NCBI RefSeq assembly: GCF_014204985.1
Contig: NZ_JACHMP010000001.1
Coordinates: forward strand, 7,502,001 to 7,566,000
From: Streptosporangium becharense
GTDB lineage: Bacteria; Actinomycetota; Actinomycetes; Streptosporangiales; Streptosporangiaceae
Length of the DNA: 64,000 bases
Direction: 5' to 3'
Of the stretch, positions 6,564-22,883 are shown piece after piece; the first letter of the stretch is position 1; every line of letters starts with the position of its first letter. Position numbers and translations under genes: made by a program. The notes under the pieces are model-generated. The model saw only the letters and a program-made list of their open reading frames with translations. It did no database searches and was not told where the DNA came from.

Positions 6564-6740
6564 GCCGCGGTGCCCGCTGAGAGGCCGCTGAGAGGCCCGC
6601 GAGAGGCCCGCGGCGCGTGAGGAGGCGGGGGCCGGCGGGGTGTCCGCGGGCCGTGGGCGCCGGGTGACCGCAGGTGCGCTCCCAGCGGGCCACAAGCGGA
6701 CGTTGAGTCACCGTGAAGAGGACCCGTCCATCGTGACGGC

Positions 6741-7391
6741 ATGACGACACCGAAGCTGATCCCCCGGCGCGGCGCCGACGAGCCCGCCCCTGACGTCTCC
6801 CTCTTCCTCGCCTTTCACGCGGGGCTTCGCAGGGACTTCGGCCGCCTGGCCGACGCCCTCGACCGGTGCACCCCCGGCGACGCGCGCCGGCGCGCTCTCA
6901 TCGACGAGCACACCGCGTTCCTGCTGCGGGCCCTCCACCACCACCACTCCACCGAGGACGAGGAGATCTGGCCGCTCCTGCGGGCCCTCACCTCCGAGGC
7001 GGGGGCCGTCATGGACCGGCTGGAGGCCGAGCACCGGCAGATGGACGCCGTGATCGAGCGGCTGTCGCAGCCACGTCGCCCCGCGGCCGCGCAGGCCGCC
7101 GACCTGCGCGCGATGCACACCCTGCTCAACGGTCACCTGGACGTGGAGGAGCAGGAGATCGTCCCACTGATCCGCAGGCACGTCAGCGCCGCGTGGTGGG
7201 AGGATTCCGCCAAGAGGGCGACCAAGAGCCACGGCCGTGACCTGCCGCTGGTCGCCGCCTGGACCCTCGACTCCGTGCTCCCGGCCGAGCGTGAAAAGCT
7301 CCTCGCCGCAGGACCGCCGGCCCTGCGGGTGCTCTACCGATTGTCCTGGCGCCGCGCCTACGAGCGCCGCGTGATGCAGGTCTTCGGCTGA
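6741..7391 (+). CDS. Hemerythrin HHE-domain protein
   Basis: The 216-residue protein has the hemerythrin di-iron ligand pattern: an N-terminal FHAGLRRDF helix, HHHHSTEDEEIWP, EAEHRQMD and GHLDVEEQEIVP. Such cytosolic proteins bind O2 or NO, or sense redox state. The C-terminal about 70 residues (AAWWEDSAKRATKSHGRDL onward) form an extension seen in actinobacterial members. The ATG start is the first in frame; there is no obvious operon partner. A GC-rich inverted repeat (GCCCGCGGTG at 7402, complement at 7443) follows and may end transcription. Confidence 0.87.
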   Translation: MTTPKLIPRRGADEPAPDVSLFLAFHAGLRRDFGRLADALDRCTPGDARRRALIDEHTAFLLRALHHHHSTEDEEIWPLLRALTSEAGAVMDRLEAEHRQMDAVIERLSQPRRPAAAQAADLRAMHTLLNGHLDVEEQEIVPLIRRHVSAAWWEDSAKRATKSHGRDLPLVAAWTLDSVLPAEREKLLAAGPPALRVLYRLSWRRAYERRVMQVFG

Positions 7392-7681
7392 TGCCGGCTC
7401 CGCCCGCGGTGCTCCCGCCGCCACGGTCCCCACCGCGGTCCCCACCGCGGGCACGGGCGACCGGCCGGAGCCGTTCCGTCCCCCACTCGGCCGGGCGGCA
7501 TTGGACGGTGGCACAACGGGCCGGGCCCGGTTCGTCGTGGAGGCCGATGAAGGGCAGGGGGAGAGGCGTCTAGGGTTCGGACACGCCTCGTCTCTCCCGC
7601 CGCGGCCTCCGCCGCGTCGCGGTGCCGGGAGACCCCGGCCGCCCGGTCCCGTCGGGCGGACTGCAACGAAAGGATCGTCCA

Positions 7682-9007
7682 GTGGCTGGAGTAGCGGATC
7701 CGGGTCGATGGCACGCCCGTCTCGGCGAGCTGATCACCGAGTACGAGGTTCCCGGCGCGAGCCTGGCCTTCCTGCACGAGGGGGAGGTGCACGAGTTCGC
7801 CGCCGGTGTGCTCAACGTGGCCACCGGGGTGGAGGTGACCACCGACTCGCTCTTCCAGATCGGCTCGGTCAGCAAGGTGTGGACCGCCACCCAGATCATG
7901 CTCCTCGTCGAGCGGGGCGAGCTGACGCTCGACACCCCCGTCTCCCGGGTCCTGCCCGAGTTCCGGGTCGCCGACCCGGAGGTGACCGAGACCGTCACGA
8001 TCAGACACCTGCTCTCGCACACCTCCGGGATCGACGGAGACTTCTTCTTCGACACCGGCCGGGGCGACGACTGCATCGAGAAGTACGTCGAGGCGTGCGC
8101 CGGCCTCCGCCAGAACCACCCCCTCGGCGTCACCCAGTCGTACTGCAACTCCGGCTTCGTCATCGCCGGACGCGTCGTCGAGCGCCTCACCGGCAAGGTG
8201 TGGGACGCCGCACTGCGCGAACAGATCATCGAGCCGCTCGGCCTGACCCATACCTGGACCCTGCCGGAGGACGTCCTGCGCTTCCGCGGCGCCATGGGCC
8301 ACCTGGACGGGGCTCCCGCACCCGTCTGGGGCCTGATGCGTTCCTGCGGCCCGGCCGGGCTGATCTGTGCCCGCGCCGCCGACGTGGTCGCCTTCGCTCG
8401 CGCCCATCTGGGCACCGGGCTGCTCGCCGACCCGCGGGCGATGTGGGAACCGCAGGTGGACATCCCCAACCCGCACACCCTCGGCAGGCAGTGGGGCGTC
8501 GGCTGGATCCTGGACGAGTGGCAGGGCCGCCTGGTCGTCTCGCACGGCGGGAACACCATCGGCCAGGCGGCCATGCTCTGGATGGTGCCGGACACGGGCA
8601 CCGTGGTGTGCGTGCTCGCCAACGGCGGCGACACCCCCGCCTTCCAGCACGCCCTGGCCACCGAGCTCTTCGGCGAGCTGATCGGCCTGGCCGTGCCGCC
8701 GGTGCTGGGCCCGTCGACCGAGCCGTTCGAGACCGACGTCGAACGGTACGCCGGCGTCTACGAGCGGGAGGGCAACCGGACGACGGTGACCGTGCGCGAC
8801 GGCCGGCTCTCGCTGCGCAGCGAGGCCACCGGGAGCCTCGCCGGGATGCGGCCGCCCCTGGAGTTCGACCTCGTCCCGGTGGACGAGGTCACCTTCGTCG
8901 GCCGCGCCGAGGGGCACTCCCAGTGGCTGTCGGCCGTCTTTTACGAGCTCGCCGACGGCACGCCGTACGTCCACATCGGGGCGCGCGCGACCCCCAGGAC
9001 CGGCTGA
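7682..9007 (+). CDS. Class C beta-lactamase-like serine hydrolase
   Basis: This 441-residue protein carries the penicillin-binding-protein-like triad: Ser62-Val-Ser-Lys65 in QIGSVSKVW, Tyr154-Cys-Asn156 in SYCNSGF, and the KTG-equivalent HGG in VVSHGGNTIG. A C-terminal beta-barrel-like domain of about 100 residues follows. No signal peptide is visible from this start. GTG 7682 was chosen because AAAGGA lies 7 bases upstream; an in-frame frame extension back to 7622 has no such site. The family includes esterases, D-aminopeptidases and DD-peptidases. Its position just before a PucR regulator and dipeptide transporter makes a D-amino-acid peptide substrate possible, but that is inference. Confidence 0.85.
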   Translation: MAGVADPGRWHARLGELITEYEVPGASLAFLHEGEVHEFAAGVLNVATGVEVTTDSLFQIGSVSKVWTATQIMLLVERGELTLDTPVSRVLPEFRVADPEVTETVTIRHLLSHTSGIDGDFFFDTGRGDDCIEKYVEACAGLRQNHPLGVTQSYCNSGFVIAGRVVERLTGKVWDAALREQIIEPLGLTHTWTLPEDVLRFRGAMGHLDGAPAPVWGLMRSCGPAGLICARAADVVAFARAHLGTGLLADPRAMWEPQVDIPNPHTLGRQWGVGWILDEWQGRLVVSHGGNTIGQAAMLWMVPDTGTVVCVLANGGDTPAFQHALATELFGELIGLAVPPVLGPSTEPFETDVERYAGVYEREGNRTTVTVRDGRLSLRSEATGSLAGMRPPLEFDLVPVDEVTFVGRAEGHSQWLSAVFYELADGTPYVHIGARATPRTG

Positions 9008-9110
9008 GGCCGCGCTGCCCGGGCAGCCGCGGGAGCGTCCCGCCGGGGCGGACGGCGCCGGTCGGCCGCCCCGGCGGAGGACACCGGCCCGTGCGGACTA
9101 TGGTGATGGG

Positions 9111-10706
9111 GTGATCGCCCGCCCGCGTGCCAGCCTACGGCGGATCCTGGAAGACCTGGGCAGCACCGTCCTGGACGTGGCCGCCTCCCCGGGGGAGCTC
9201 GACGCCGAGGTCACCGGCGTGCACATCTACGACCCCCTCGACGAGCTGCTGGTCCCGGAGGGGGGCATCCTGCTCGCCGTCGGGGTCGACTCCGCCGAGC
9301 GGATCTGCGCTCTGCTCGACGCGGCGGGCTCGGCCGCGGGCGTCGTCGTCAAGCAGCCGGTGGACGTCGACGACGCCGTCCGGGAGAAGGTCCGGCGGAC
9401 CGGGGTGGCGGTGCTGGGCCTCACCCGCGCCGCCTCGTGGGCACAGGTCGCCGCGCTGTTGCGCTCGCTGCTGGCCGAAGGCGACCTGGCCGCGCCGGAC
9501 GACACCGCGCCGGACGACCTGTTCTCGCTGGCCAACGCCGTGCGCGCGCTGCTGGACGCCCCGATCACCATCGAGGACCGGTCGTCGCGGGTGCTGGCCT
9601 ACTCCACCGGGCAGGAGGAGGCCGACCCCAGCAGGGTGGAGACCGTGCTCGGCCGCCAGGTGCCGGAACGGTACCTGCGGATGCTGGAGGAACGCGGGTT
9701 CTTCCGGCAGCTCTACCAGAGCCGCGAACCGGTCTACATCGCGCTGGGCGACGACGGCATCAACCGGGAGGCGATCGCCGTCCGTTCCGGGGACGAGATC
9801 CTCGGCTCCATCTGGGTCGCCGTGCGGGAGCCGCTGAGCGACCAGCGCCGGCACGCCCTCACCGAAGCCGCCAAGATCGTCGCATTGCAGCTGCTCCGCC
9901 AGCGCGCTGGTGCCGACACCGGGCGGCGGCTCCGCGCCGACCTGCTCTCCACCGTGCTGGCGGGCGGCAAGGACGCGGCCGAGGCGGCGGGACGGCTCGG
10001 CGTCACCGGTGAGCGGGTGTGCGTGCTCGCGGCGCAGCTCACCGGCGGCACCGGCGGATCCCACGCCGACGCCGCACAACGGGAGGGCGACAGGCAGCGC
10101 TTCTGCGACGCGCTCGCCCTGCACATCGGCGCCATCCACCCCAAGGCCGCCGCCGCGCTGGTCGGCTCGGTCGCCTACGCGGTGCTGCCCCTGCACACCG
10201 CCGGTGGGGACGAGGAGGCGCGGGCCGTACGGGTCGCCGAGAGCTTCCTCACCCGGGTCGGCCCCCGGCACGTCGCCAACATCGGGGTGGGACGCCTGGC
10301 GGCCGATCTGACCGAGGTGGCGAGGTCCCGGGCCGACGCCGACCGGGCGCTGCGGGTGTTGCGTGCCCGCGAGGCGTCCGGAGCGGTGGCCGGCTACACC
10401 GACGTGCACTTCGAGGCGCTGCTGCTGCAGCTCGCGGACCAGGTCAAGGCGGAGGAGCAGACGCCCACCGGGCCCTACCAGCGGCTCATGGCCCACGACG
10501 CCGAGCACGGCAGCGAACTGGTCGCGACCCTCCGCGCCTACCTGGACGCCTTCGGCGACGTCAACGCCGCCTCCGCCCGGGTGCACGTGCACGCCAACAC
10601 CTTCCGCTACCGCCTGAGGCGGCTCACCGAGATCAGCGGCCTCGACCTGAACGACCCCGACGCGCGGCTCTCCGTGATGCTCCAGATGCGGATCTTCGGT
10701 CGCTAG
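9111..10706 (+). CDS. PucR-family transcriptional regulator
   Basis: The 531-residue protein has an N-terminal PucR domain (about 10-130, with DPLDELLVPEGGILLAVGVD) and a central GGDEF-like/CdaR-type region. It ends in the PucR C-terminal helix-turn-helix (LRAYLDAFGDVNAASARVHV then FRYRLRRLTEISGLDLNDPD). PucR proteins control purine, proline, GABA and other nitrogen-source catabolic genes. It lies 95 bp upstream of, and co-oriented with, a dipeptide ABC transporter, so it probably regulates that transporter and perhaps the convergent peptidase set. GTG 9111 is the only plausible start; the ATG at 9100 is out of frame and closes after four codons. Confidence 0.88.
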   Translation: MIARPRASLRRILEDLGSTVLDVAASPGELDAEVTGVHIYDPLDELLVPEGGILLAVGVDSAERICALLDAAGSAAGVVVKQPVDVDDAVREKVRRTGVAVLGLTRAASWAQVAALLRSLLAEGDLAAPDDTAPDDLFSLANAVRALLDAPITIEDRSSRVLAYSTGQEEADPSRVETVLGRQVPERYLRMLEERGFFRQLYQSREPVYIALGDDGINREAIAVRSGDEILGSIWVAVREPLSDQRRHALTEAAKIVALQLLRQRAGADTGRRLRADLLSTVLAGGKDAAEAAGRLGVTGERVCVLAAQLTGGTGGSHADAAQREGDRQRFCDALALHIGAIHPKAAAALVGSVAYAVLPLHTAGGDEEARAVRVAESFLTRVGPRHVANIGVGRLAADLTEVARSRADADRALRVLRAREASGAVAGYTDVHFEALLLQLADQVKAEEQTPTGPYQRLMAHDAEHGSELVATLRAYLDAFGDVNAASARVHVHANTFRYRLRRLTEISGLDLNDPDARLSVMLQMRIFGR

Positions 10707-10801
10707 CACGACGGAACGCGAGCTTTTCGTCACGGAGAACGAAGAAGCGACCGCCGGTGAGGGGCGAATGTGGGACACCACCCCCACCTCCTGGAGCTCC
10801 G

Positions 10802-12388
10802 ATGAAACACACAGGATCGGCGGCCGTGCTCGGCGCCCTCAGCCTGCTCGCGACCGCGTGCGGCGGTGCCGCCGAGTCCCCGTCGGGCGGATCCGCCGCC
10901 GGGGGCACCTTCACCTACGCGCTCCGCGCCGACCCCGGCGTGCTCGACCCCGCCATGGGTGCCCTCTCGGTCACCAACACGGTGCTCTCGCTGGCGTACG
11001 ACACGCTGACCAACGTCGGTCCCGACGGGAAGATCATCCCCGGGCTGGCCGAGAAGTGGGACGTCAAACCCGACTCGGTGACCTTCACCCTCCGCAAGGA
11101 CGTCACCTGCTCCGACGGCTCCAAGCTCACCCCGGCCGACGTGGCCGCCAACATCGACCACATCACCGACCCGGCCGCCAAGTCGCCGATCAACGGCGTG
11201 CTGGTGCCGGCCGGAATGAAGGCCGAGGCGGACGACGCCGCCGGGACGGTGACGCTCTCCACCCCCAAGCCCTTCAGCTTCATCCTGGAGAGCACGCCGA
11301 TCATCTTCATCGTCTGCGGCAAGGGGCTCAAGGACCGCTCGGCGCTGGCCCGCGGCACCTCGGGCTCCGGCCCCTACACGCTCACCGAGGCGGTTCCCGG
11401 CGACCACTACACCTTCCGGGTCCGCGAGGACTACGCCTGGGGGCCGGGCGGCGCCACCACGAAGGCACCGGGCCAGCCCGCCACGGTCGTGCTGAAGGTC
11501 GTGCCGAACGAGCAGACCGCCGCCAACCTGCTGGTCTCCGGCGACCTCAACGGCGCGATGGTCCAGGGCAGCGATCGTGCCCGGCTGGAGGCCATGCCGG
11601 GTATCGGCAAGTCGATCCAGTCCGCGGGCAACGGGCAGTTCTTCTACCACCAGGGCGATGACCGCCCCGCCAAGGACCCGGCGGTGCGCAAGGCGCTCAC
11701 CCAGGCGATCAACCTGACCGAGCTCGCCGGGATCGCCTCCGGCGGCACCGGCCGGCCGGCCACCGGGCTGGTGCTGGAGCCGCGGCCGTGCCGGGGCGAC
11801 ACGGTCACCGGTCACCTCCCGGCGTTCGACCCGGCCGCGGCGGCGGCCGCGCTGGACGCCGCCGGCTGGAAGGCCGGCGCGGACGGCGTCCGTGCCAAGG
11901 ACGGGCGGAAGCTGACGCTGCGCCTGCTCTACGGCACCACCAGAGGCGCGGGCGTGCAGGCGGCGGCCGAGTACCTGGCCGCGGCGTGGAAGAAGGCGGG
12001 GGCCGACGTCACCCTGAACGGCGTCATCGACACCAAGCTGTCGGAATCGCTCGCCACCGCCCAGGACTGGGACGTCGCCTGGCTGCCGATCGGCGTCACA
12101 CTCCCCACGCAGCTCGTCGCGTTCCTGTCCGGCCCGGCCGCGCCGAAGGGCAGCAACTTCGCCCACCTGACCAACACCCGCTATGAAGAACTGGTGACCG
12201 AGGCGGTGACCAAGCCCGGCGCGGACGGCTGCAAGCTCTGGCTGGAGGCGGAATCGGCGCTGTTCGAGAACGCCGACCTGGTCCCGGTGGTGGAGAACAC
12301 CACGCTGGTCGCCTCCAGGAACGCGACGTTCCAGATGCAGGCGGAGCTGTTCTCCCCGACCTCCTTCCGGATGACCGAGGCGGGCTGA
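10802..12388 (+). CDS. Peptide ABC transporter substrate-binding lipoprotein
   Basis: ATG 10802 has GGAG 5 bases upstream and begins a lipoprotein signal peptide, with lipobox LLATAC and Cys20 as the lipidated residue. The 528-residue protein is a family 5 (cluster C) binding protein: YDTLTNVGPDGKIIPGLAEK, then FTLRKDVTCSDGSKLTPADV, and a C-terminal lobe with DWDVAWLPIGV. It would capture di- or oligopeptides outside the membrane and deliver them to the following permeases. The frame runs open upstream to 10019 but that part overlaps the PucR gene and is not coding. It is first gene of a four-gene operon with no gaps. Confidence 0.92.
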   Translation: MKHTGSAAVLGALSLLATACGGAAESPSGGSAAGGTFTYALRADPGVLDPAMGALSVTNTVLSLAYDTLTNVGPDGKIIPGLAEKWDVKPDSVTFTLRKDVTCSDGSKLTPADVAANIDHITDPAAKSPINGVLVPAGMKAEADDAAGTVTLSTPKPFSFILESTPIIFIVCGKGLKDRSALARGTSGSGPYTLTEAVPGDHYTFRVREDYAWGPGGATTKAPGQPATVVLKVVPNEQTAANLLVSGDLNGAMVQGSDRARLEAMPGIGKSIQSAGNGQFFYHQGDDRPAKDPAVRKALTQAINLTELAGIASGGTGRPATGLVLEPRPCRGDTVTGHLPAFDPAAAAAALDAAGWKAGADGVRAKDGRKLTLRLLYGTTRGAGVQAAAEYLAAAWKKAGADVTLNGVIDTKLSESLATAQDWDVAWLPIGVTLPTQLVAFLSGPAAPKGSNFAHLTNTRYEELVTEAVTKPGADGCKLWLEAESALFENADLVPVVENTTLVASRNATFQMQAELFSPTSFRMTEAG

Positions 12389-13435
12389 GTGGCCGCAACC
12401 CCCCCGCCCGTGCCCCTCCCGGCCGGCGACGGCGCGCTCCCGGACCCGGCGTCCCCGAAGCGGGCCCCGTCCGGCCGGATGGGCGCCGGTCGTGCCCGCG
12501 GCGCGTTCGTGCTGCGGCACCTCCTGCGGTTCGCGCTCTCGCTGGCCGCGCTGCTCGTCGCGTCGTTCGCCATGATCCACCTGATCCCGGGCGACCCGGT
12601 CCGCGCCTCGCTCGGCCCCTCCGCGCCGGCCGAGGTGATCGCCGCCAGGCGCGCGCTGCTCGGGCTGGACCAGCCGATCCCGGCGCAGCTGGCCGCCTAC
12701 GTCCGCGATGTGCTGAGCGGGGAGTTCGGCACGTCGCTGCTCAGCGGGGAACCGGTCGGTGAGATCATCGCCGCCCGGCTGCCCAACACCCTCGCCCTCG
12801 CCCTGCTCGCGACCGTCGTGGCCCTGCTCGTCGCGGTGCCGCTCGGCATGTGGGCGGGGGTCCGCACCGAGAACGGCCGCAACCGGGGCACCGAGGCGGC
12901 CTTCACCTCGGCGACCGGCGCGGCCGTCGCCGTGCCCGAGTTCCTCTACGCGATCGCCCTGGTGACCGTGTTCGCGATCGGGCTCGGCTGGTTCCCGCCC
13001 GCTGGCAGGGGCGGACCCGAGTCGTACGTGCTGCCGGTCCTCGCCCTGGCCGTCGCCCCGGCGGCGATGATCGCCCGGATCTCCCGGGTGGAGACGCTGC
13101 GCGAACTGGGCACCGACTATGTGCGGCTGGCCCGCGCCAAGCGGCTGCCCGCCGCCCGGCTGTACCTGCGGCACGTCCTGCCCAACACGCTCACCGCGAC
13201 CCTCACCCTGGGCGGGCTGCTGCTCACCGGCCTGATCGCCGGGAGCGTGCTGGTCGAGTACGTCTTCGCCTGGCCGGGGCTCGGCCTGCGGATCGTGGAG
13301 TCGATCACCCAGAAGGACTACCCGGTCGCCCAGGGCGTGATCCTCGTCTACGGCGCGATCGTGCTGGCGGTGAACCTCCTCGTCGACGTGCTGCTCGGCG
13401 TGCTCGACCCCACGTCCGCCCTGAAGGAGAGCTGA
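12389..13435 (+). CDS. Dipeptide/oligopeptide ABC transporter permease (DppB-like)
   Basis: The GTG start follows directly after the stop of the binding-protein gene. The first about 45 residues are Pro/Ala-rich and hydrophilic. Then comes a typical DppB start (LLRFALSLAALLVASFAMIH) with the LIPGDPVRA periplasmic motif. Six membrane helices are expected. The EAA loop that contacts the ATPases is visible as DYVRLARAKRLPAARLYLRH. A start at ATG 12479 (MGAGRARGAFVLRHLL) would remove the odd N-terminal tail and fits relatives better, though neither start has a clear ribosome-binding site. The protein is 348 residues as given. Confidence 0.9.
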   Translation: MAATPPPVPLPAGDGALPDPASPKRAPSGRMGAGRARGAFVLRHLLRFALSLAALLVASFAMIHLIPGDPVRASLGPSAPAEVIAARRALLGLDQPIPAQLAAYVRDVLSGEFGTSLLSGEPVGEIIAARLPNTLALALLATVVALLVAVPLGMWAGVRTENGRNRGTEAAFTSATGAAVAVPEFLYAIALVTVFAIGLGWFPPAGRGGPESYVLPVLALAVAPAAMIARISRVETLRELGTDYVRLARAKRLPAARLYLRHVLPNTLTATLTLGGLLLTGLIAGSVLVEYVFAWPGLGLRIVESITQKDYPVAQGVILVYGAIVLAVNLLVDVLLGVLDPTSALKES

Positions 13436-15261
13436 TGCGGCACGCGTTGCGGACCCCCGCCGGGCTGGCCGGGACCGCGCTGGTCACCCTCATGGTGGTG
13501 CTGGCGGTCGCCGGGCCGCCGATCTGGGGCACCGAGGCCGAGCGCATCGACTCCGCGGCCATCCTCCAGGGAGCCTCGGCCGCGCACCCGCTCGGCACCG
13601 ACAACCTGGGCCGGGACATCCTCGCCCGGGTACTGGTCGCCGGCCGGCTCTCCCTCACGCTGGCCCTGCTGGCCACGCTCATCGGCGCCGTCGCCGGGAC
13701 CGTGCTCGGCGCGCTCCCCTCGGTGCTGCCCCGCCGCGCCGGGCGGCTGGTCACCGGCGCGGTGAACGCGTTGGTCGCCTTCCCCGGCCTGCTGCTGGCC
13801 ATGTTCACCGCGGTGGTCGCGGGACTCGGCGCGCGCGGGGCCGTGCTGGGCATCGGCGCGGCGATCGCCCCGGGCTTCGCCCGGCTCACTCAGACGCTCG
13901 CCGCCTCGGTGTCCGCGGCCGACTACGTGTCGGCCGCCCGCATGCTCGGGGTCCCCCGGCGGCTGATCATGACCCGGCACGTCCTGCCCAACATCGCCGA
14001 GCCGCTGATCCTCAACCTGGCCCAGGCGCTGGGCGGCGCGCTGCTCGGGCTGGCCGGCCTCTCCTTCCTCGGCCTGGGGGTGCAGCCGCCCTCGTTCGAC
14101 TGGGGGCGGCTGCTCTTCGACGGTTTCAGCCGCATCTACGCCACCCCGGCCGTCGCGCTGGGACCCGCCGTCGCGGTGGCGCTCGCGGGCATCGGGTTCA
14201 ACCTCCTCGGAGACGCCCTGGCCCGCGCCGCGTCGCGGACCGCCGCACCGATGGGGAAGACCGACCGGCGGGCCGTTCCCGCGTCCCGCGAACTCGGCGA
14301 GCCCGACCCGGAGGCGGTCCTGGAGGTGCGGGACCTCACCGTCGCCTTCCCCGGCGGGGCGACGCCGGTGCGCGGGGTGTCGCTGACCGTCGCCCCCGGC
14401 GAGATCGTCGGCCTGGTCGGGGAGTCGGGCAGCGGCAAGAGCCTGACCGCCTCCGCGATCGGCGGCCTGGTGCCCTACCCGGGGGAGGTGACCGCGGCCC
14501 GGCTGCGGTTGTGCGGCACCGACCTGGACGGGCTGCCGGAGCAGGAGCGGCGCAAGCTGCTCGGCACGTCGCTGGCGATGGTCTTCCAGGACCCGATGGC
14601 CTCGCTCAACCCGGCGCTCAGAATCGGCGGGCAGCTCGCGGAGGTGGCGACCGTGCACCGCGGCGCGAGCCGCGCCGAGGCGCGGACCAGGGCCGTCGAC
14701 CGGCTGGGACACGTGCACATCCCCGAGCCGGAGAGGCGTGCCGGGCAACACCCGCACGAGCTGTCCGGCGGCATGCGGCAGCGCGTGGTGATCGCGATGG
14801 GCCTGATGGGCACGCCACGCCTGATCATCGCCGACGAGCCGACCACCGCCCTCGACGTGACCGTGCAGCGGCAGATCCTGCGTCTGCTGCGCGAGGTGAC
14901 CGACGAGACCGGCGCGGCGACCCTGTTCATCTCCCACGACATCGCCGTGGTCGGCGAGCTGTGCCACCGGGTCGTGGTGATGTACGCGGGCCGGGTGGTC
15001 GAGGAGCTGCCGGTCGGGAAGCTGGCCACCGGCGCCGCGCACCCCTACACCCGCGCGCTGATCGCCTCGCTGCCCGACATGGACACCGACCGGTCCCTTC
15101 CGCTGGCCGGCATCGCCGGCCATCAGCCCTCACCCGCCGAGGTCGGCGCCGGCTGCGCCTTCGCGGACCGCTGCGCGTTGGCCACCGGCCGCTGCGCCGA
15201 GCTGCCGCCCCTCGTCCCGCACGGCACGGGGCACCGCGTCGCCTGCTGGGAGACATCATGA
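13435..15261 (+). CDS. Fused dipeptide ABC transporter permease and ATPase (DppC-DppD)
   Basis: The ATG overlaps the previous TGA by one base and has AAGGAG 5 bases upstream. Residues 1-270 form a DppC-type permease (HPLGTDNLGRDILARVLVAG, with EAA loop DYVSAARMLGVPRRLIMTRH). After a short linker, residues about 295-608 are a complete DppD-type ATPase: Walker A GESGSGKS, signature LSGGMRQRV, Walker B LIIADEP, H-loop FISHD. The C-terminal oligopeptide-transporter Cys region follows (CAFADRCALATGRC). The frame is continuous, so this is a genuine 608-residue fusion of subunits usually encoded separately. The gene overlaps the next one by ATGA. Confidence 0.92.
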   Translation: MRHALRTPAGLAGTALVTLMVVLAVAGPPIWGTEAERIDSAAILQGASAAHPLGTDNLGRDILARVLVAGRLSLTLALLATLIGAVAGTVLGALPSVLPRRAGRLVTGAVNALVAFPGLLLAMFTAVVAGLGARGAVLGIGAAIAPGFARLTQTLAASVSAADYVSAARMLGVPRRLIMTRHVLPNIAEPLILNLAQALGGALLGLAGLSFLGLGVQPPSFDWGRLLFDGFSRIYATPAVALGPAVAVALAGIGFNLLGDALARAASRTAAPMGKTDRRAVPASRELGEPDPEAVLEVRDLTVAFPGGATPVRGVSLTVAPGEIVGLVGESGSGKSLTASAIGGLVPYPGEVTAARLRLCGTDLDGLPEQERRKLLGTSLAMVFQDPMASLNPALRIGGQLAEVATVHRGASRAEARTRAVDRLGHVHIPEPERRAGQHPHELSGGMRQRVVIAMGLMGTPRLIIADEPTTALDVTVQRQILRLLREVTDETGAATLFISHDIAVVGELCHRVVVMYAGRVVEELPVGKLATGAAHPYTRALIASLPDMDTDRSLPLAGIAGHQPSPAEVGAGCAFADRCALATGRCAELPPLVPHGTGHRVACWETS

Positions 15262-15950
15262 TCATCAAGAATCTGACGGTGCGGTTCGGCGCCTTCACCG
15301 CCGTCGACGACGTCACGCTGGAGATCCCGCCCGGGGCGATCGTCGGCCTGGTGGGGGAGTCGGGGTCGGGCAAGTCCACCCTGGCCAGGGCGGTGGCCGG
15401 ACTGGTGCCGTACACCGGTGGGATCACGGGCGGCGACCCGCGGCGGATCCAGATGGTCTTCCAGGACCCCTACGCCTCCCTCGACCCGCGGATGACCGTG
15501 GGGGCGTCGGTGGCCGAGGGGCTCCGCGTGCCCCGCGCCGCCCGCCGGGCGGAGGTGGAGCGGCTGCTGTCGCTGGTGTCGCTGCCCGCCGCGCTGGCGG
15601 GACGCTACCCGCGTGAGCTGTCCGGTGGTCAGCGTCAGCGGGTGGCGATCGCCCGGGCACTGGGTGCGGAACCTCAGCTGCTGGTCGCCGACGAGATCAC
15701 CTCGGCCCTGGACGTCTCCGTCCAGGGGGCGGTGCTCAATCTGATCCGCTCCCTGCGCGCGGACCTCGGGCTGTCGATGCTGTTCATCTCGCACAACCTC
15801 GCCGTGGTCCGGTACGTCTCCGACGTCGTCGCGGTGATGCACCGGGGCAGGCTGGTCGAGACGGGGCCGACGGAGGAGCTGGTGAAGGCACCCCGGGACG
15901 ACTACACCCGCGCTCTGATCGAAGCCGTGCCCCGGCTCGGACGCGGCTGA
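15258..15950 (+). CDS. Dipeptide ABC transporter ATP-binding protein (DppF-like)
   Basis: ATG 15258 overlaps the stop of the fused gene (ATGA). At 230 residues it is short for a DppF because it lacks the C-terminal Cys-rich extension. It keeps Walker A GESGSGKS, signature LSGGQRQRV, Walker B LLVADE and the H-loop FISHN. The residues after the catalytic Glu read EITSALD instead of the usual EPTSALD. It pairs with the ATPase half of the preceding fusion to drive peptide import. It is last gene of the operon and faces the convergent racemase gene across a perfect hairpin. Confidence 0.92.
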   Translation: MIIKNLTVRFGAFTAVDDVTLEIPPGAIVGLVGESGSGKSTLARAVAGLVPYTGGITGGDPRRIQMVFQDPYASLDPRMTVGASVAEGLRVPRAARRAEVERLLSLVSLPAALAGRYPRELSGGQRQRVAIARALGAEPQLLVADEITSALDVSVQGAVLNLIRSLRADLGLSMLFISHNLAVVRYVSDVVAVMHRGRLVETGPTEELVKAPRDDYTRALIEAVPRLGRG

Positions 15951-16015
15951 CGGCCGCCCTCCGCTTTCCCCTCACCGAGGACAGCCGACCGTTGGGCACC
16001 GCTCCGGTGGTCGAG

Positions 16016-16045
16016 TGACAGGCTGTTCCCCGGAACAGCCTGTCA
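16016..16045. terminator. Bidirectional hairpin terminator
   Basis: A perfect inverted repeat, TGACAGGCTGTTCC at 16016-16029 with its complement at 16032-16045, lies between the convergent transporter and racemase genes. The centre CC would open into a small loop. Confidence 0.8.
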
Positions 16046-16137
16046 GGATCAACGCCGAGGTCAGGATCAGCGAGACGAGTGAGGCCCATCCTCCGGCGCA
16101 GAGCGCCGCCGCCAGGGCGAACGGGACCGTGAGGATG

Positions 16138-17238
16138 TCACAGGTCGATCCACTCGGTGGAGACGGTGACCTCGCGCAGCAGGTCGGGCAGCGGGGCGAC
16201 GCCGATGCCGGGCCCGGTGGGGACGTCCAGGTGACCGTCGCGCAGTTCGAAGGGCTCGGTGACGTCGGTGGCGAAGTAGCGGCCGGAGGCGGAGGTGTCA
16301 CCGGGCAGGGTGAAGCCGGGCAAGGCGGCCAGGGCCACGTTGGCGGCGCGGCCGATACCGGTCTCCAGCATGCCGCCGCACCACACCGCCACCCCGTGGG
16401 CCCGGCACAGGTCGTGGATGCGCCGGGCCTCCAGGTAGCCGCCGACGCGGCCGGGCTTGATGTTGACGATCGAGCAGGCGCCCAGCGAGATCGCGGCGGC
16501 GGCGTGCTCGGCCGACTCGATCGACTCGTCCAGGCAGACGGGGGTGGCGATGCGCCGGGCCAGGTGGGAGTGCTGCACCAGGTCGTCGTGGGCCAGGGGC
16601 TGCTCGATGAGCAGCAGGCCGAAGGGGTCGAGGCGGCCCAGGTGGGGGGCGTCGGTGAGGGTGTAGGCGGCGTTGGCGTCGGCCTGCAGCAGCAGATCGG
16701 GGCCGAAGCGCTCGCGCACGGCGCGGACCGGCTCGACGTCCCAGCCGGGCTGGATCTTGAGCTTGATGCGGACGTAGCCCTCGTCGAGGTAACCGGAGAC
16801 CGCGTCGAGGAGCTGGGGGACGGAGTCCATGATGCCGACCGACACACCGGCGGGCACCCGGGTGGCGGCGGCGCCGAGGAAGGAGGCCATGGACTGCCCG
16901 GCGGCGCGGAGCCGCGCGTCGAGCACGGCGGTCTCCAGGGCGGCCTTGGCCATGCGGTGGCCCTTGAACGGGTGCAAGGCGCGGCCGACGGCGTGGACGT
17001 CGGCGTGCCGGGGCAGCGCGGGGATCAGGAAGCGGCGCAGCACGTCGGCGGCGCCGTCGACGTACTCGGGGGAGTAGAGCGGGCCGGACATGGCCACGCA
17101 CTCGCCCCAGCCCTCGGCGTCGGGGGTGACCACGCGTACCAGCAGCACGTCGCGTTCGGTCTCGGTGCCGAAGGAGGTGCGAAACGGCGCGACGAGCGGC
17201 ATCGCGATCCGCCGCAGTTCGATTCCAGTGATCTTCAT
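16138..17238 (-). CDS. N-acylamino acid racemase / o-succinylbenzoate synthase-like enolase-superfamily enzyme
   Basis: The 366-residue protein is a complete muconate-lactonising-subgroup enolase. The acid/base pair is Lys159-x-Lys161 (RIKLKIQ) and Lys261 (NIKPGRVGG). Metal ligands are Asp187 (QADANAAY), Glu212 (LIEQPL) and Asp237 (CLDES). The family contains both menaquinone MenC and N-succinylamino acid racemase (NSAR), which sequence alone separates poorly. No menaquinone gene is near. A COG3375-type acetyl/succinyltransferase, an M20 hydrolase and a dipeptidase lie just upstream on the same strand, which favours NSAR. ATG 17238 was chosen over the open extension to 17340, which has no motif. 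A hairpin at 17481-17498 separates it from the GNAT operon. Confidence 0.85.
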   Translation of the reverse strand: MKITGIELRRIAMPLVAPFRTSFGTETERDVLLVRVVTPDAEGWGECVAMSGPLYSPEYVDGAADVLRRFLIPALPRHADVHAVGRALHPFKGHRMAKAALETAVLDARLRAAGQSMASFLGAAATRVPAGVSVGIMDSVPQLLDAVSGYLDEGYVRIKLKIQPGWDVEPVRAVRERFGPDLLLQADANAAYTLTDAPHLGRLDPFGLLLIEQPLAHDDLVQHSHLARRIATPVCLDESIESAEHAAAAISLGACSIVNIKPGRVGGYLEARRIHDLCRAHGVAVWCGGMLETGIGRAANVALAALPGFTLPGDTSASGRYFATDVTEPFELRDGHLDVPTGPGIGVAPLPDLLREVTVSTEWIDL

Positions 17239-17480
17239 GACGGTGTGCGGCCTCCGCCGCTTCTCCCTCCGGTCACGCCGCCGGTCAGGCGGCTCGTTCC
17301 AACGTCTCGTGCGGCTCGCACCGCGCAGCGGGTCGCGCACCGGGTCGCACGTGGGGCCGCGGGGGCCGCGGGTGGGCGGTGTGCCGGGCCGTGCGGCCCC
17401 GGTCTTTCTCCGGGTTGCGCCTGCGGTCCCTCTCCGGGACGGCGGCCCGCGGCGATCGTACGGCCCCCGCAGGGCCCCGC

Positions 17481-17498
17481 GCCGGCGACTTCGCCGGC
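17481..17498 (-). terminator. Hairpin after the peptidase-GNAT operon
   Basis: GCCGGCGA at 17481-17488 and TCGCCGGC at 17491-17498 pair perfectly, 9 bases downstream of the GNAT stop codon. It would end or attenuate the M19-M20-GNAT transcript before the racemase gene. Confidence 0.6.
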
Positions 17499-17506
17499 CG
17501 GTGAAC

Positions 17507-18286
17507 TCACCGGGCCCGCTCCACGACGTAGTAGTGCCTGTCGTGGAAACCGGTCACCCGGGCCCCCTCCCGCAGGAGGCCGCCCAGCACGTCGCGTACG
17601 GCGTGGCGCCACGACCGGGCCACCTCCGGGTCGGTGCGGCGCAGCGTCTCCACGTCGGCGGGCACGGCGATCAGCACCGTCGCGGTGTCGGTCCGCCCCG
17701 CGACCGGCCGGCCGTCGCACTCGCCCAGCCCGACCGCCGCGCCCGGCGGGACCTCCACCAGGTACGGCTCCCGCCGGGCGGCGGCCAGCACCTGCGGTTC
17801 GGACAGCCGCCAGACGGCGAGCACCCTGTCCGACTCGTCCCCGCTGTTGATCGCGTCGTTCATGACCCCGTAGAAGGACGGCAGGTACTCCTCGGGACGC
17901 GCGCCGAGCTTGGTCAGGTTGAAGTGGGCGTTGCGCCGCACCAGCGGGTCGTAGGTCCAGGTGATCCGCTCCATGCCCCGGGCCAGGGCCCACTCCCGCT
18001 GGTGGAGCTTGAGGGCGAAGCCGATTCCCCGCCCGGCCGCCGCGCCGGTGATGTGGGAGTGCAGCACCCGCTCCGCCGGGGCCCCGAAGAACCCCACCGA
18101 CGCGCCGACCATCCGGCCGTCCAGGTAGGCGCCGGCCACGTAGTTGCCCGCGTGCGACAGCGCCCGCATCATCTCCACCGTGATCGGCGTGTTGGCGGGG
18201 CCGGGGTGCCAGATGCCGTCGAACAGCCGCAGCACGTCCTCGAAGTCCGCGATGGAGTGCAGCTCCCGCAGTACCGGGCCGTTCAT
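17507..18286 (-). CDS. COG3375-type GNAT acyltransferase, candidate D-amino acid N-succinyltransferase
   Basis: The 259-residue protein has a GNAT fold with an acyl-CoA pyrophosphate loop near GAAAGRGIGFALKL. It also has the family-specific phrases LHSHITG, LKLHQREWAL, ITWTYDPL, NAHFNLTKLGA and FYGVMNDAINSGDESDR. These match the COG3375 group, whose Geobacillus member was proposed as the succinyl-CoA:D-amino acid transferase in the NSAR pathway. The start is ATG 18286, overlapping the M20 stop by ATGA, which implies coupled translation. The long open extension beyond it lies in the M20 gene and is a shadow. Acyl donor and acceptor are inferred from context. Confidence 0.82.
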   Translation of the reverse strand: MNGPVLRELHSIADFEDVLRLFDGIWHPGPANTPITVEMMRALSHAGNYVAGAYLDGRMVGASVGFFGAPAERVLHSHITGAAAGRGIGFALKLHQREWALARGMERITWTYDPLVRRNAHFNLTKLGARPEEYLPSFYGVMNDAINSGDESDRVLAVWRLSEPQVLAAARREPYLVEVPPGAAVGLGECDGRPVAGRTDTATVLIAVPADVETLRRTDPEVARSWRHAVRDVLGGLLREGARVTGFHDRHYYVVERAR

Positions 18287-19509
18287 CCGAGCACCGCCTC
18301 GACCAGGCCGGCCAGCAGCGCCGTACGGCCGGGCATCTCGGCCACGACCACGTGCTCGCCGTCGGCGTGGGCGCCGCCTCCCACCGCGCCGAGTCCGTCG
18401 AGGGTGGGGCAGCCGACCCCGGCGGTGTAGTTGCCGTCGGAGGCGCCGCCCACGCCGGCACCGGAGAGGGGGGCGAGCCCGAGCCCGGCGGCGACCCGCT
18501 GCGCGAGGGCGAACAGCTCGGCCGACGAGGAGTGCTCCAGAGGTGGCCGGTTCGGGCCTCCCCGCACCTCCAGGCGGGTCCCGGAGAGCCGGGGGGACAG
18601 GGCCCTCATCAGCTCGTCCACCCGCCGCTGCGCGGCCCGGGTGGGCACCCGGACGTCCACCGCCAGGCGGGCCAGCGCGGGCACGGTGTTGGTGGTGGTC
18701 CCGGCCGACAGCACCGTGGGCGTCACGGTGGCCGACCCCGGGGAAGGCGGGGGAGCGGCATCCGGCGCGGGGGCGGCGGGCGACGACGCCTCCACCGCCG
18801 TCACGGCCGGGAGGCCGTCGTTCGTCACGCCGCGAGCCGGACCGTCGCCCACCCCTCCATCGTGCACCGGAGCGGCGTTGACCAGGTCGGCGATCCCCGC
18901 GACGGCGAGAACCTGGTGGGCCAGCTCGATCCCGGCGTTCGCGCCCCTCTCCGGTTCCAGGCCGGCGTGCGCGGCCCTGCCGTGCACGGTGACCTCGTAC
19001 ATGGAGGTCCCCTTGCGCGCGGTCTTGAGCGCGCCGCCGTCGGCGCTCGCCTCCAGGACGAACGCGGCCGCGCAGCCGCGCGCCGAGTCCTCGACCAGCG
19101 CGCGCGAGGAGAGCGAGCCGACCTCCTCGTCCCCGGTGACCAGCACGCACACCCCGTCCAAGGACGGCAGCGCGGCCATGGCGTGGAACATCTGCACCAG
19201 GCCCGCCTTCATGTCGAACACGCCCGGCCCCCGGGCGATCCCGTCGACCAGCGACCAGGGACGCTCCCGCAGCGTCCCGACCGGCCAGACCGTGTCATGG
19301 TGGCCGACCAGCAGCACCCGGGGGATGCCGAAGGTCCACCGCAGGTGGGTGACCCCGTCGACCACGATCGTCTCCGCGCGCGCGCCGAGCATTCTGCGAC
19401 CCTGGTCGGCGACCACCCGGGCACTGCGGGCCACCGCCTCGTGGTCGGCGGAGAACGACTCGCAGCCGACGATTTCCTCCAGGTCCTGGATCATCCGCGT
19501 CAGGTTCAC
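18283..19509 (-). CDS. M20 family metallohydrolase (CPG2/ArgE-like), candidate N-acyl-L-amino acid deacylase
   Basis: The 408-residue protein shows the M20 di-zinc site: His70 and Asp72 in GHHDTVWP, Asp99 in GVFDMK, the Glu128-Glu129 pair in VTGDEEVGS, Glu153 in VLEASADG, and a late His in GGGAHADGE. His181 in HGRAAHAGLEPE is the dimerisation-lid ligand. Residues about 214-262 are an unusual Ala/Pro/Gly insertion within the lid domain. It would hydrolyse N-acyl amino acids or C-terminal residues; beside NSAR and the COG3375 GNAT, desuccinylation is likely. The GTG start overlaps the dipeptidase stop (GTGA). Confidence 0.88.
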   Translation of the reverse strand: MNLTRMIQDLEEIVGCESFSADHEAVARSARVVADQGRRMLGARAETIVVDGVTHLRWTFGIPRVLLVGHHDTVWPVGTLRERPWSLVDGIARGPGVFDMKAGLVQMFHAMAALPSLDGVCVLVTGDEEVGSLSSRALVEDSARGCAAAFVLEASADGGALKTARKGTSMYEVTVHGRAAHAGLEPERGANAGIELAHQVLAVAGIADLVNAAPVHDGGVGDGPARGVTNDGLPAVTAVEASSPAAPAPDAAPPPSPGSATVTPTVLSAGTTTNTVPALARLAVDVRVPTRAAQRRVDELMRALSPRLSGTRLEVRGGPNRPPLEHSSSAELFALAQRVAAGLGLAPLSGAGVGGASDGNYTAGVGCPTLDGLGAVGGGAHADGEHVVVAEMPGRTALLAGLVEAVLG

Positions 19510-20543
19510 GCGGGCCTGCCCAACTCGGCGCGGAACAACCGGTGCACGTTGCCGCCCAGGATCTTCACGATCTCGTCGTCGGCGAACCCGTGCCCGACCA
19601 GCGCCTCGGTCACCAGCGGCAACCCGGCCGGCCCGGCCAGCCCGGGCAGCGTCGCGTACACGTCCACCTCCCCGTACCCCAGATCCTCACAACACGGCGG
19701 CGTCACATCGTGCAGCACCTCCCGCACGAAATCCGGCCCCAGCCCCACATGATCGATCCCGGCCACCCCCGCCACATGCGCGATGTGCTCCACCAGCCGA
19801 TCCACCCCCCGCGCCGCCGGATCCGCCGCCAGAAACCCCGGAAAGAAATTGACGCACACCACCCCACCGGTGGCGGCCACCCCCCGCAGCTGCGCATCGG
19901 TCAGATTCCGATGATGATCCCGCAACGCCCGCGCCGCCGAATGCGTGGCCAGCACCGGCCGGGTCGCCAGCTCCAGCACGTGCGCCACCCCGGCCGCCCC
20001 CAGATGCGAGACGTCGAACAGCATGCCCAGCCGCTCCATCACCGCCAGCGCCGCCACCCCGGCCGCGGTCAGCCGCCCCCCGGTGGCGTCCTCCCCGCTG
20101 CCGTCGGCCAGCGCGCTCCGCCCCCAGTGCGCGATCGAGGCCACCCGCACCCCCAGCCGGTACACGGTGGGCAGCAACTCCACCGACGCGTCCAGCCCCG
20201 GCATGCTCTCCAGTGCCAGCACCAGCGCGATCCGCCCGGCGGCCAGCGCCGCGTCCACCTGGGCCCCGTCCAGGCACAACCGCACCGCGTCGGCGTTGCC
20301 CTCGGCCAGCACATGCGCGCACTCGATCATCCGCAGCGTCTGGCGCAGCGCACCCTCCGGCCGGTAGCGGTCCTCGACGAAGACCGGCAGCACCTGGATG
20401 TCCACCCCGCCCTCGCGCAGCTGGGGCAGCCACCGCTCCCGGAAGAACGACGCCCACCGCTCCGGCGGCCGGGCACACACCGCCATCAACAAGTCATTGT
20501 GGGTGTCCGCGACGACGGCGCGGTGGTGGAGCTCAACGGACAC
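19506..20543 (-). CDS. M19 membrane-dipeptidase-family (renal-type) dipeptidase
   Basis: The 345-residue protein is a full-length M19 enzyme: His15-x-Asp17 (DTHND), bridging Glu112 (LALESMPG), His180 (FDVSHLG), His201 (ATHSAAR) and a late Asp (HVGLGPDF). There is no signal peptide, so it is cytosolic. M19 dipeptidases tolerate D-residues at the C-terminal position, so they can release D-amino acids from imported peptides. GTG 20543 has GGAGGG about 8 bases upstream. It is the first gene of a coupled M19-M20-GNAT operon and fits as the step between transporter and D-amino acid conversion. Confidence 0.9.
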   Translation of the reverse strand: MSVELHHRAVVADTHNDLLMAVCARPPERWASFFRERWLPQLREGGVDIQVLPVFVEDRYRPEGALRQTLRMIECAHVLAEGNADAVRLCLDGAQVDAALAAGRIALVLALESMPGLDASVELLPTVYRLGVRVASIAHWGRSALADGSGEDATGGRLTAAGVAALAVMERLGMLFDVSHLGAAGVAHVLELATRPVLATHSAARALRDHHRNLTDAQLRGVAATGGVVCVNFFPGFLAADPAARGVDRLVEHIAHVAGVAGIDHVGLGPDFVREVLHDVTPPCCEDLGYGEVDVYATLPGLAGPAGLPLVTEALVGHGFADDEIVKILGGNVHRLFRAELGRPA

Positions 20544-20937
20544 GGGGCAACCCTCCGATGCGTGGTTACGGCGACCGTATGACAGGTCGGGGTGAGGGGG
20601 TTCGTCCCGTTCGCAGAAGAGAGGCCGGAGCGTTCGTCCATTCGGCCAAGACGTCCCGGGCCGCTCGCCTGCGCGGGAGGGACGGTTCGCCTGCGCGGGA
20701 GGGACGGTTCGCCCGCGCGGGGAGGGCGGCCGGTCCGCGCGGTGAACGGCGCGGGGCCGGGATGTGACCGTAGGACCCGCCCATCCGGGACTTTGGTCAC
20801 TGGATGAGGTGTCCTCGCGGCCACTTGAATCTCACGGGTATCGAAGACATCGACGGAGCCCCGCGCTCCCTCGCCCAGGAGGGTGTTTCCCTTGGCGATT
20901 CCCGACGAGTTCCCCGGCGTCCCCCGCGGGGGGCACC
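20544..20937. other. Intergenic region between divergent genes, with 22-bp tandem repeats
   Basis: This gap of about 394 bp separates the M19 operon from the nitronate monooxygenase gene. It holds the 22-bp repeats at 20666-20731. The frame of the next gene is open back to 20764, but that part (RRHRRSPALPRPGG) has no family similarity and is taken as non-coding. No promoter is obvious. Confidence 0.55.
20666..20731. repeat. 22-bp tandem repeat, two exact copies and one degenerate
   Basis: The unit beginning CGCCTGCGCGGGAGGGACGG occurs exactly at 20666-20687 and 20688-20709. A third diverged copy (CGCCCGCGCGGGGAGGG) follows from 20710. Confidence 0.85.
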
Positions 20938-22437
20938 GTGAGGTCCGCGACCCGTCCGCCCGGACCGGCACGCCTCGGGGCCGGCGTGTCTGAGGGCGGG
21001 CTCCCGGTCCTCATCCAGGGCGGGATGGGAGTAGGCGTGTCCGGGTGGCGGCTGGCGCGGGCCGTCGCCCGGACCGGACAGCTCGGCGTGGTGTCCGGGA
21101 CCGCGCTGGACCTCGTGCTGTCCAGGCGCCTGCAGCGCGGCGACCCGGGCGGGCACCTGCGCCGGGCGCTGGCGCACTTCCCGGTCCCGGAGGTCGCCGA
21201 GCGGGTCCTGGCCCGCTTCTTCGTCCCCGGCGGCGCCGACCCCGGCCTGCCGTACCGGCCGGTGCCCCGGCTCGGCCTGCGTCCGCACCGCGCCCGGGAC
21301 GAGCTCACGGTGGTCGCCAACTTCGCCGAGGTCTTCCTCGCGAAGGAAGGGCACGACGGCCCGATCGGGATCAACTACCTGGAGAAGATCCAGCTGGCCA
21401 CGCCCGCCTCCGTCTACGGGGCGATGCTCGCCGGAGTCGACTACGTGCTGATGGGTGCGGGCATCCCCTCGGAGATCCCGCGGCTGCTCGACGCGCTCGC
21501 CGCGCACCGGCCGGCGGAGATATCGGTCACGGTGGCGGAGTCGGCGGCCGACGACCGCCACACCGTCGGCGTCGACCCGGCGGCGCTGCTCGGCCGCGTC
21601 CTCGGGCCGCTGCGCCGGCCCCGGTTGCTGGCCATCGTCTCCTCCCACGTCCTGGCCGCCTACCTCACCCGTTCCGCGGAGACCCGGCCGGACGGGTTCG
21701 TGCTGGAGACACCGGTGGCGGGCGGGCACAGCGCACCACCCCGGGGCAAACCGCAGCTCGACGCCGCGGGCGAGCCGGTCTACGGGCCGCGCGACCGGAT
21801 CGACACCGGCAAGATCGCGGCGCTCGGCCTGCCGTTCTGGCTGGCCGGCGGCTACGGCACCCCGGAGGGGCTGGTCCAGGCGGTCGAGATCGGCGCGGCC
21901 GGGGTCCAGGTGGGGTCGGCCTTCGCGCTGTGCCGGGAGTCGGGCCTGGACGCCACGCTCAGGCGCCGCCTGCTCGGCCGGGCCGCCGAGGGCACCCTGG
22001 AGGTCCGCAACGACCCGCGCGCCTCTCCCGCGGGCTTCCCCTTCAAGATCGCTGACCTGCCCGGCACCATGTCGGACCCGGCCGTCTACGCCGAACGTCC
22101 CCGCCTGTGCGACCTGGGGCATCTGCGCACGCCGTACCGGAAGGAGGACGGCGCGGTCGGCTACCGCTGTCCCGCCGAACCGGTCGGCGTCCACGTCCGC
22201 AAAGGCCGTCCGGAGGAGGACACCGTGGGACGGCGCTGCCTGTGCAACGGGCTGCTCGCCGCCATCGGCCTCGGCCAGCGGCGGCCGGACGGCTACCAGG
22301 AGCCCCCGCTGCTCACTCTCGGCCAGGACCTCGGGTTCCTCGAAGGGCTGCCGGACGACTACTCGGCGGCGGACGTCGTCGGCCACCTCCTCTCCCTCTC
22401 CGCGGCCGGGCGAGCCCGGGTGGCCACCGCGTCGTGA
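20938..22437 (+). CDS. Nitronate monooxygenase / 2-nitropropane dioxygenase-like FMN protein
   Basis: The protein (499 residues from GTG 20938, 483 from GTG 20986) is a TIM-barrel FMN enzyme. It has the opening LPVLIQGGMGVGVSG, a catalytic-region VAGGHSAPPRG, and the phosphate-binding end FWLAGGYGTPEG and AGVQVGSAFALC. The C-terminal extension has conserved Cys residues (RYRLCDL-type, GYRCPAEP, RRCLCNG), as in a longer actinobacterial subgroup. The family oxidises nitronates or acts as flavin reductases; the true substrate is not shown. The start is uncertain: 20938 has only GGGGGG upstream. An FMN reductase gene follows 446 bp downstream. Confidence 0.82.
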   Translation: MRSATRPPGPARLGAGVSEGGLPVLIQGGMGVGVSGWRLARAVARTGQLGVVSGTALDLVLSRRLQRGDPGGHLRRALAHFPVPEVAERVLARFFVPGGADPGLPYRPVPRLGLRPHRARDELTVVANFAEVFLAKEGHDGPIGINYLEKIQLATPASVYGAMLAGVDYVLMGAGIPSEIPRLLDALAAHRPAEISVTVAESAADDRHTVGVDPAALLGRVLGPLRRPRLLAIVSSHVLAAYLTRSAETRPDGFVLETPVAGGHSAPPRGKPQLDAAGEPVYGPRDRIDTGKIAALGLPFWLAGGYGTPEGLVQAVEIGAAGVQVGSAFALCRESGLDATLRRRLLGRAAEGTLEVRNDPRASPAGFPFKIADLPGTMSDPAVYAERPRLCDLGHLRTPYRKEDGAVGYRCPAEPVGVHVRKGRPEEDTVGRRCLCNGLLAAIGLGQRRPDGYQEPPLLTLGQDLGFLEGLPDDYSAADVVGHLLSLSAAGRARVATAS

Positions 22438-22749: not shown

Positions 22750-22776
22750 CACGGCGATGCCGTGCGGCGGTTTTTT
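22750..22776 (+). terminator. Rho-independent-like terminator
   Basis: CACGGC at 22750-22755 pairs with GCCGTG at 22759-22764 over a GAT loop. CGGCGG and then six T follow (22771-22776), one of the few T-tracts in this window. The T-run is 6 bases from the short stem, so efficiency is uncertain. Confidence 0.5.
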
Positions 22777-22866: not shown

Positions 22867-22883
22867 CAGGGATGGGGCCGGGA

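Follow-up and report, generated by a model that had tools for sequence, protein, structure and literature searches.

A relay converting D- into L-amino acids is reportedly known from Geobacillus kaustophilus, where Sakai and coworkers are said to have described in 2006 that a GNAT acyltransferase, an N-succinylamino acid racemase (NSAR) and an M20 hydrolase act as a trio, and that enzymes with both NSAR and o-succinylbenzoate synthase (OSBS) activity may serve two pathways. Enolase-family enzymes also stand next to peptidase genes in the L-Ala-D/L-Glu epimerase clusters of YcjG and YkfB (PMC5808125). Here, a stretch of 64,000 bases from Streptosporangium becharense is analyzed (bases 7,502,001-7,566,000 of contig 1 in a 7.8-Mb genome; called the window in the following), which carries ten genes encoding such a trio together with a peptide-family ABC importer, an M19 dipeptidase, a serine hydrolase and a PucR-type regulator (Table 1). 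We consider it likely that this locus is an actinomycete module for the use of peptides with D-residues and that its racemase, or a second copy in the same genome, probably also serves menaquinone synthesis.

Judged by its sequence, the racemase belongs with the Amycolatopsis-type NSAR/OSBS enzymes. It reaches 323.5 bits against TIGR01928 (cut-off 200.65) and 576 bits over 364 residues against the N-acylamino acid racemase of Amycolatopsis (1sja), and the alignment with the latter begins at the ATG at 17238, which is taken as the start codon, the GTG at 17340 being an over-extension of the mechanical frame. The two catalytic lysines (K161, K261) and the three metal ligands (D187, E212, D237) are all present and, together with K159 and R264, are found in 92 of 92 linked homologues. 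R264 is the equivalent of R266 of 1sja, a residue reported to favour racemisation. An assignment as L-Ala-D/L-Glu epimerase was rejected, with 64 bits against a cut-off of 343 (NF011708) and 60.6 bits against 500 (NF041118).

Of the enzymes that would act together with the racemase, the M20, M19 and serine hydrolases likewise have conserved active sites. The GNAT protein has no match in Pfam or NCBIfam; its predicted structure (pLDDT 94.6, from a 44-row alignment) is matched by Foldseek to solved GNAT enzymes with a best E of 5e-8 and a probability of 1.00, and TM scores by target of 0.61-0.84 among the 50 matches listed support a GNAT fold. For the M20 hydrolase the closest solved chain is carboxypeptidase G2 (1cg2), and residues H70, D72, D99, E128, E129, E153 and H381, which presumably have active-site roles, are found in at least 98% of 72 homologues. 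With 408 residues it is longer than six homologues (about 365-387), and an Ala/Pro-rich stretch may be an insert. The M19 dipeptidase agrees with its family profile and is closest among solved chains to the renal-type dipeptidase 3id7, reportedly the Streptomyces enzyme with a preference for L-D dipeptides; of 34 homologues, at least 98% keep H15, D17, E112, H180 and H201, presumably the metal ligands. In the serine hydrolase the S12 motifs are intact, and 52 linked homologues have S62, K65, Y154, N156 and H288 at a frequency of at least 98%. It reaches no NCBIfam cut-off among the 25 matches listed, the label of a class C beta-lactamase being rejected at 88.3 bits (NF033085, cut-off 415), and its nearest solved chain is 7spn, followed further down by the alkaline D-peptidase 4y7p and the D-amino acid amidase 2dns.

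The association of these genes was followed in other genomes, with GNAT as the bait. Among 61 genomes of the family, 27 were found to have GNAT, and 36 stretches around it were taken from the 41 matches outside the window; moreover, the best 80 of at least 594 GNAT loci in a scan of named genomes were taken. Partner genes were scored at fixed identity thresholds, and the two sets share some records (e.g., L049, L086). The racemase lies beside GNAT in 29 of the 36 family and 65 of the 80 named loci, M20 in 15 and 58, M19 in 10 and 25, the serine hydrolase in 9 and 38, PucR in 9 and 41 and the binding protein in 7 and 28, respectively. At the same thresholds, none of 58 menB loci used as control has any of nine partner genes, these stretches being shorter (0.62 Mb vs. 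0.68 and 1.60 Mb). Clustering of the genes around GNAT thus exceeds chance. GNAT and racemase overlap or abut in 65 of 90 same-strand pairs. Furthermore, a racemase over the TIGR01928 cut-off is present in 27 of 27 genomes with GNAT and in 6 of the 34 others, three of these 33 racemase genomes, one of them with GNAT, being borderline at 200-202 bits.

Racemase, M20, serine hydrolase, PucR and the whole importer stand beside GNAT in 12 of the 80 named loci, from eight genera, and five of these have M19 as well (L133, L139, L141, L146 and L151; four Lentzea and one Nocardia). In Lentzea albidocapillata (L139) all ten genes run in a single direction. The gene order varies between lineages, so the linkage outlasts rearrangement, and the window is a rearranged two-operon version of the actinomycete cluster. 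The union of importer, dipeptidase and converter, which had been called unusual, is thus not so, and clusters closely related to the window's are common in actinomycetes; the proposal that converter, importer and peptidases form one functional set is supported by context, through conserved linkage and intact active sites.

The peptidases of such clusters vary. An S9 peptidase is found in clusters L127 and L153 and is fused to the serine hydrolase in L121. Similarity places a class A-like hydrolase family in 17 loci, with two members scanned, and an amidohydrolase family (PF07969) in 14, with one member scanned; in nine of these 14 it lies two genes before GNAT. The PF07969 family includes D-aminoacylases. 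These varied peptidases speak for peptide breakdown. Proteins of about 1100 residues occupy the serine hydrolase slot in L121 (local 5246-8593) and L239 (local 4308-7691), the former being a fusion of S9 peptidase and S12-type hydrolase and the latter a fusion suggested by size and label only. The window's genome itself holds a second locus (L042, G000:C1:490000-509900, local 8498-19898) running in a single direction, with a racemase near G000:C1:498.5 kb (61% identity), a GNAT (44%), PucR, importer genes, a PF07969 amidohydrolase sited between these two, and a serine hydrolase; no M20 or M19 was recognised within the fetched stretch. In two family genomes, G003 and G031, parts absent beside GNAT are found elsewhere in the genome. 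Decay might explain why the racemase match beside GNAT is only partial in G003 (L053) and why that of G049 (L076) is split in two.

The simplest chain that would employ every gene appears to run from import over hydrolysis, succinylation and racemisation to desuccinylation. The ABC importer would bring short peptides into the cell, from which the M19 dipeptidase and the serine hydrolase might release D-amino acids. GNAT would put a succinyl group on the D-amino acid, the racemase would interconvert the N-succinyl-D and N-succinyl-L forms, and M20 might strip succinate from the L form only, thereby pulling the relay towards the L-amino acid. PucR would control the gene set, and in this genome devoid of menC the racemase or its second copy would additionally supply o-succinylbenzoate. 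For succinylation, racemisation and desuccinylation, the proposed chemistry follows the Geobacillus precedent, and substrates, direction and regulation are what we infer for the chain as a whole. Substrates named for NSARs include N-acetyl-methionine and N-succinyl-phenylglycine (PMC8142540) and, more broadly, N-acylated methionine, phenylglycine, norleucine and homophenylalanine (PMC8142540, PMC7431475). Given this range, murein is no better a fit than D-residues of peptide antibiotics or non-canonical D-amino acids in free form, and we do not prefer peptidoglycan to other D-peptides as the source.

The relay might also run in reverse or use other acyl groups, making D- or N-acyl-D-amino acids for peptide antibiotics or the cell wall, or salvaging N-acyl-amino acids. 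This would be in line with the PF07969 amidohydrolase of some relatives and of the second locus, and with the acceptance of N-acetyl, N-carbamoyl, N-formyl and further acyl groups by NSARs reported in PMC7431475. However, the importer and the several peptidases in the same clusters speak for catabolism. M20 enzymes of this kind are moreover usually L-specific, which counts against a reversed relay, and we regard this alternative as unlikely.

The context of the racemase in other organisms bears on its primary role. Over 366 residues, 1sja shares 98.6% identity with a racemase encoded in Amycolatopsis rubida (L144), whose neighbours are M20, GNAT, PucR, a serine hydrolase, importer genes and one of the amidohydrolases of the above family, and the A. 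rubida genome encodes a dedicated MenC (439 bits). A separate MenC is found in nine of nine genomes searched from Amycolatopsis (six), Lentzea, Kribbella and Nocardia, all with racemase and GNAT. Furthermore, all 11 Streptomyces and Embleya genomes with racemase and GNAT have the MqnA/MqnD family over cut-off, i.e., the futalosine pathway, and in none of the 11 was MenB found at E 1e-60. As a separate MenC or the MqnA/D route is present, the racemase should be dispensable for menaquinone in these organisms. Its context thereby speaks for a role in D-amino acid metabolism, against the printed view of the prototype as OSBS. In public annotation, relatives are named menC in six of six plasmid stretches examined; on Streptomyces and Arthrobacter plasmids (L235, L236, L239) the racemase carries the menC label together with a menaquinone term. 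In the other Streptomyces genomes examined, MqnA/D is present and no MenB is found.

In the window's genome the situation is different. MenB is present with MenD- and MenE-type genes adjoining it, and neither MqnA/D nor a dedicated MenC is found in the genome, the best score for the latter being 80.3 bits against the NF002782 cut-off of 288. The gap between MenB and MenD is 130 bases without a menC inside (L041, local 7775-11703). Among 58 men loci, the own included, MenC lies between MenB and MenD in 30, the gap being 924-1726 bases; in 11 the gap is only 12-130 bases, all in genomes without MenC including the window's; one further genome (G033) has a short gap and MenC elsewhere, and no MenD was seen in the remaining 16 stretches. 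Altogether, 14 of the 61 genomes lack a MenC over cut-off. Twelve of these have MenB, and G035 and G050 show no MenB match at the limit used. A racemase over cut-off is present in all 12, the window's genome being one of them, compared with 20 of the 46 genomes with both MenB and MenC; each of the 12 has a racemase with 76.8-100% identity to that of the window, which is itself counted among them. Two of the MenC-less genomes, G012 and G039, have the racemase and no GNAT match. The first-pass annotation had treated a menC role of the racemase as a refutation of the D-amino acid route. The racemase is indeed not a dedicated actinobacterial MenC (68.1 bits as protein and 64.4 in the genome search against NF002782), but its genome has no dedicated menC and the racemase family is the best candidate for OSBS there, so both roles are probable.

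The ten further PF13378 proteins of this genome were scanned as N-terminally trimmed frames, their scores therefore being lower bounds; among the matches listed (E up to 1e-25) none is over a menC cut-off, and the sole weak candidate is L233 (99.2 bits vs. 200.65). Weak TIGR01928 matches of this size also occur in menC-positive relatives, e.g., G038, G044 and G051. Since the pathway is present and one enzyme is missing, the racemase family is the best OSBS candidate, an argument which is independent of any count on a tree. The racemase, or the second copy, probably also makes o-succinylbenzoate for menaquinone here.

A tree built from MenB and MenD of 41 genomes places the MenC-less ones in a single clade, which also includes the MenC-bearing G025, G038 and G051; the menC state requires at least three changes, or more if regain is excluded. 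Fisher tests of menC absence against racemase presence yield p 2.6e-4 at the model cut-off and 3.4e-5 at 279 bits; as relatedness accounts for much of the association, significance is not claimed from them. A test confined to racemases at least 76% identical to the window's was not used, identity being known for part of the racemase-bearing genomes. With slight preference, we propose that the dedicated menC was lost between menB and menD in the window's clade, several times if regain is excluded, because the racemase of the salvage operon already makes o-succinylbenzoate, that G012 and G039 keep only the menaquinone job, and that the founding N-acylamino acid racemase is a true enzyme of the D-amino acid pathway.

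Several observations weigh against a salvage module with a racemase that doubles as OSBS. Regarding the module, GNAT occurs without a racemase in the fetched flank in 7 of the 36 family and 15 of the 80 named loci, six of these 15 having M20 and M19, and M19 is optional given its presence in 25 named loci only. The binding protein is over no specific NCBIfam cut-off among the 10 matches listed. The two operons of the window have no detectable shared operator upstream, the best 16-mer match (14 of 16) being equalled by 8 of 25 shuffles, and they are parted by a strong hairpin. Regarding the double role, the tree provides three independent pairs, one in the expected direction and two uninformative, and as the genomes are related, the association between racemase and menC absence is not significant after phylogeny. 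Finally, according to PMC4215206 the Amycolatopsis enzyme functions biologically as OSBS, a reassignment of this racemase type that is cited there from 1999.

Alternatively, the racemase would simply be the MenC of this genome, GNAT and M20 would act on a different acyl-amino acid, and any link to D-amino acids would be incidental. The menC name in public annotation, the absence of a dedicated menC here, the racemases of G012 and G039 and the printed role of the prototype would all agree with this. On the other side, the racemase accompanies GNAT in the 11 futalosine-type and the nine MenC-bearing genomes, is coupled to GNAT in most relatives and lies far from menB in its own genome, making this explanation rather improbable. 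Recycling of murein peptides proper, with uptake and breakdown of dipeptides of the L-Ala-D-Glu type, would suit a peptide-family importer and an M19 dipeptidase as well as the MurR/RpiR-family regulator near two distant GNAT-menC pairs, but it is very improbable, as the racemase is far from a dipeptide epimerase, no murein amidase or LD-carboxypeptidase is found among the ten genes by Pfam, and D-Ala and D-Glu have racemases of their own.

The salvage module preferred here is laid out in two convergent sets, 7682-15950 on the plus and 20543-16138 on the minus strand, separated by 187 bases (Table 1). The ten genes are present and intact as open frames where the first-pass annotation had placed them, with Pfam backing nine and the structure model backing GNAT. 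Its claim of translational coupling holds as well, M19 and M20 overlapping by four bases (GTGA) and M20 and GNAT by four (ATGA); the racemase starts 268 bases past the end of GNAT. The hairpin between the sets is stable on both strands, with -27.4 kcal/mol for either one (z -5.67 and -4.50), and no Rfam family reaches its gathering score in 5000-24000. The binding protein has a lipobox-like cysteine near its start (read by eye). As a DppA dipeptide-binding protein it was rejected (36.8 bits against the NF043070 cut-off of 1005), agreeing only with the broad SBP_bac_5 family, and relatives of the permease and ATPase genes carry the public labels dipeptide/oligopeptide/nickel permease or ATP-binding protein.

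Table 1. Features of the two convergent gene sets (positions within the window).
Feature	Position	Strand	Basis and remarks
Serine hydrolase, class C beta-lactamase fold (S12 type); possible D-aminopeptidase, amidase or esterase	7682-9007	plus	PF00144, 212.7 bits
PucR-type transcriptional regulator	9111-10706	plus	PF13556 and PF17853 over cut-off
Solute-binding protein, peptide/nickel family 5, probable lipoprotein	10802-12388	plus	PF00496, 192.3 bits
ABC permease, DppB/OppB type	12389-13435	plus	PF00528, PF19300
Fused ABC permease (DppC type) and ATPase (DppD type)	13435-15261	plus	PF00528, PF00005 and PF08352 in one frame
ABC ATPase, DppF type	15258-15950	plus	PF00005; overlaps the 13435-15261 gene
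Perfect 14-bp inverted repeat, probable two-way terminator	16016-16045		Between the convergent operons; without T run
NSAR/OSBS racemase (predicted)	16138-17238	minus	TIGR01928, 1sja match, active site
GNAT acyltransferase, presumed D-amino acid N-succinyltransferase	17507-18286	minus	Structure model, Foldseek, racemase linkage
M20 hydrolase, presumed N-succinyl-L-amino acid desuccinylase	18283-19509	minus	PF01546, PF07687
M19 (renal-type) dipeptidase	19506-20543	minus	PF01244, 256 bits

The trio of GNAT, NSAR and M20 is already known. Neither the operon nor a replacement of menC by an NSAR is described in any title or abstract start among the matches listed from the open-licence literature, which is weak evidence of absence. 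Apparently new are the union of the trio with importer, peptidases and PucR across actinomycetes, the finding that the prototype racemase belongs to such a cluster, and what looks like a replacement of menC by the racemase. If true, respiration would be tied to a nutrient-scavenging enzyme, a catabolic racemase having taken over an essential biosynthetic step. One enzyme family would then show three apparent natural states, i.e., racemase only, OSBS only and both, providing a directly testable case. Moreover, a hypothesis on function is gained for a widespread operon in which the key genes bear wrong or unspecific names.

Compared with the reported Geobacillus kaustophilus trio, the window shares the three enzyme types (16138-19509) and adds the peptide-family importer, M19, the S12-type hydrolase and PucR, the likeness being one of enzyme type. 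The YcjG and YkfB clusters likewise combine an enolase-family enzyme with peptidase genes, but their epimerases act on dipeptides directly, and the window's racemase is far under their family cut-off. Plasmid loci of Deinococcus and Pseudosulfitobacter (L237, L238, L240) resemble the window in that GNAT lies next to a menC-labelled gene, or one gene away from it, and ABC transporter genes are present; they differ in the regulators nearby (MurR/RpiR or DeoR) and in a GNAT identity of 34-41%. The racemase of Amycolatopsis sp. TS-1-60 (1sja) matches the window's in its catalytic residues and, via A. rubida, in the kind of its gene neighbours, whereas all six Amycolatopsis genomes searched have a dedicated MenC, which the window's genome lacks.

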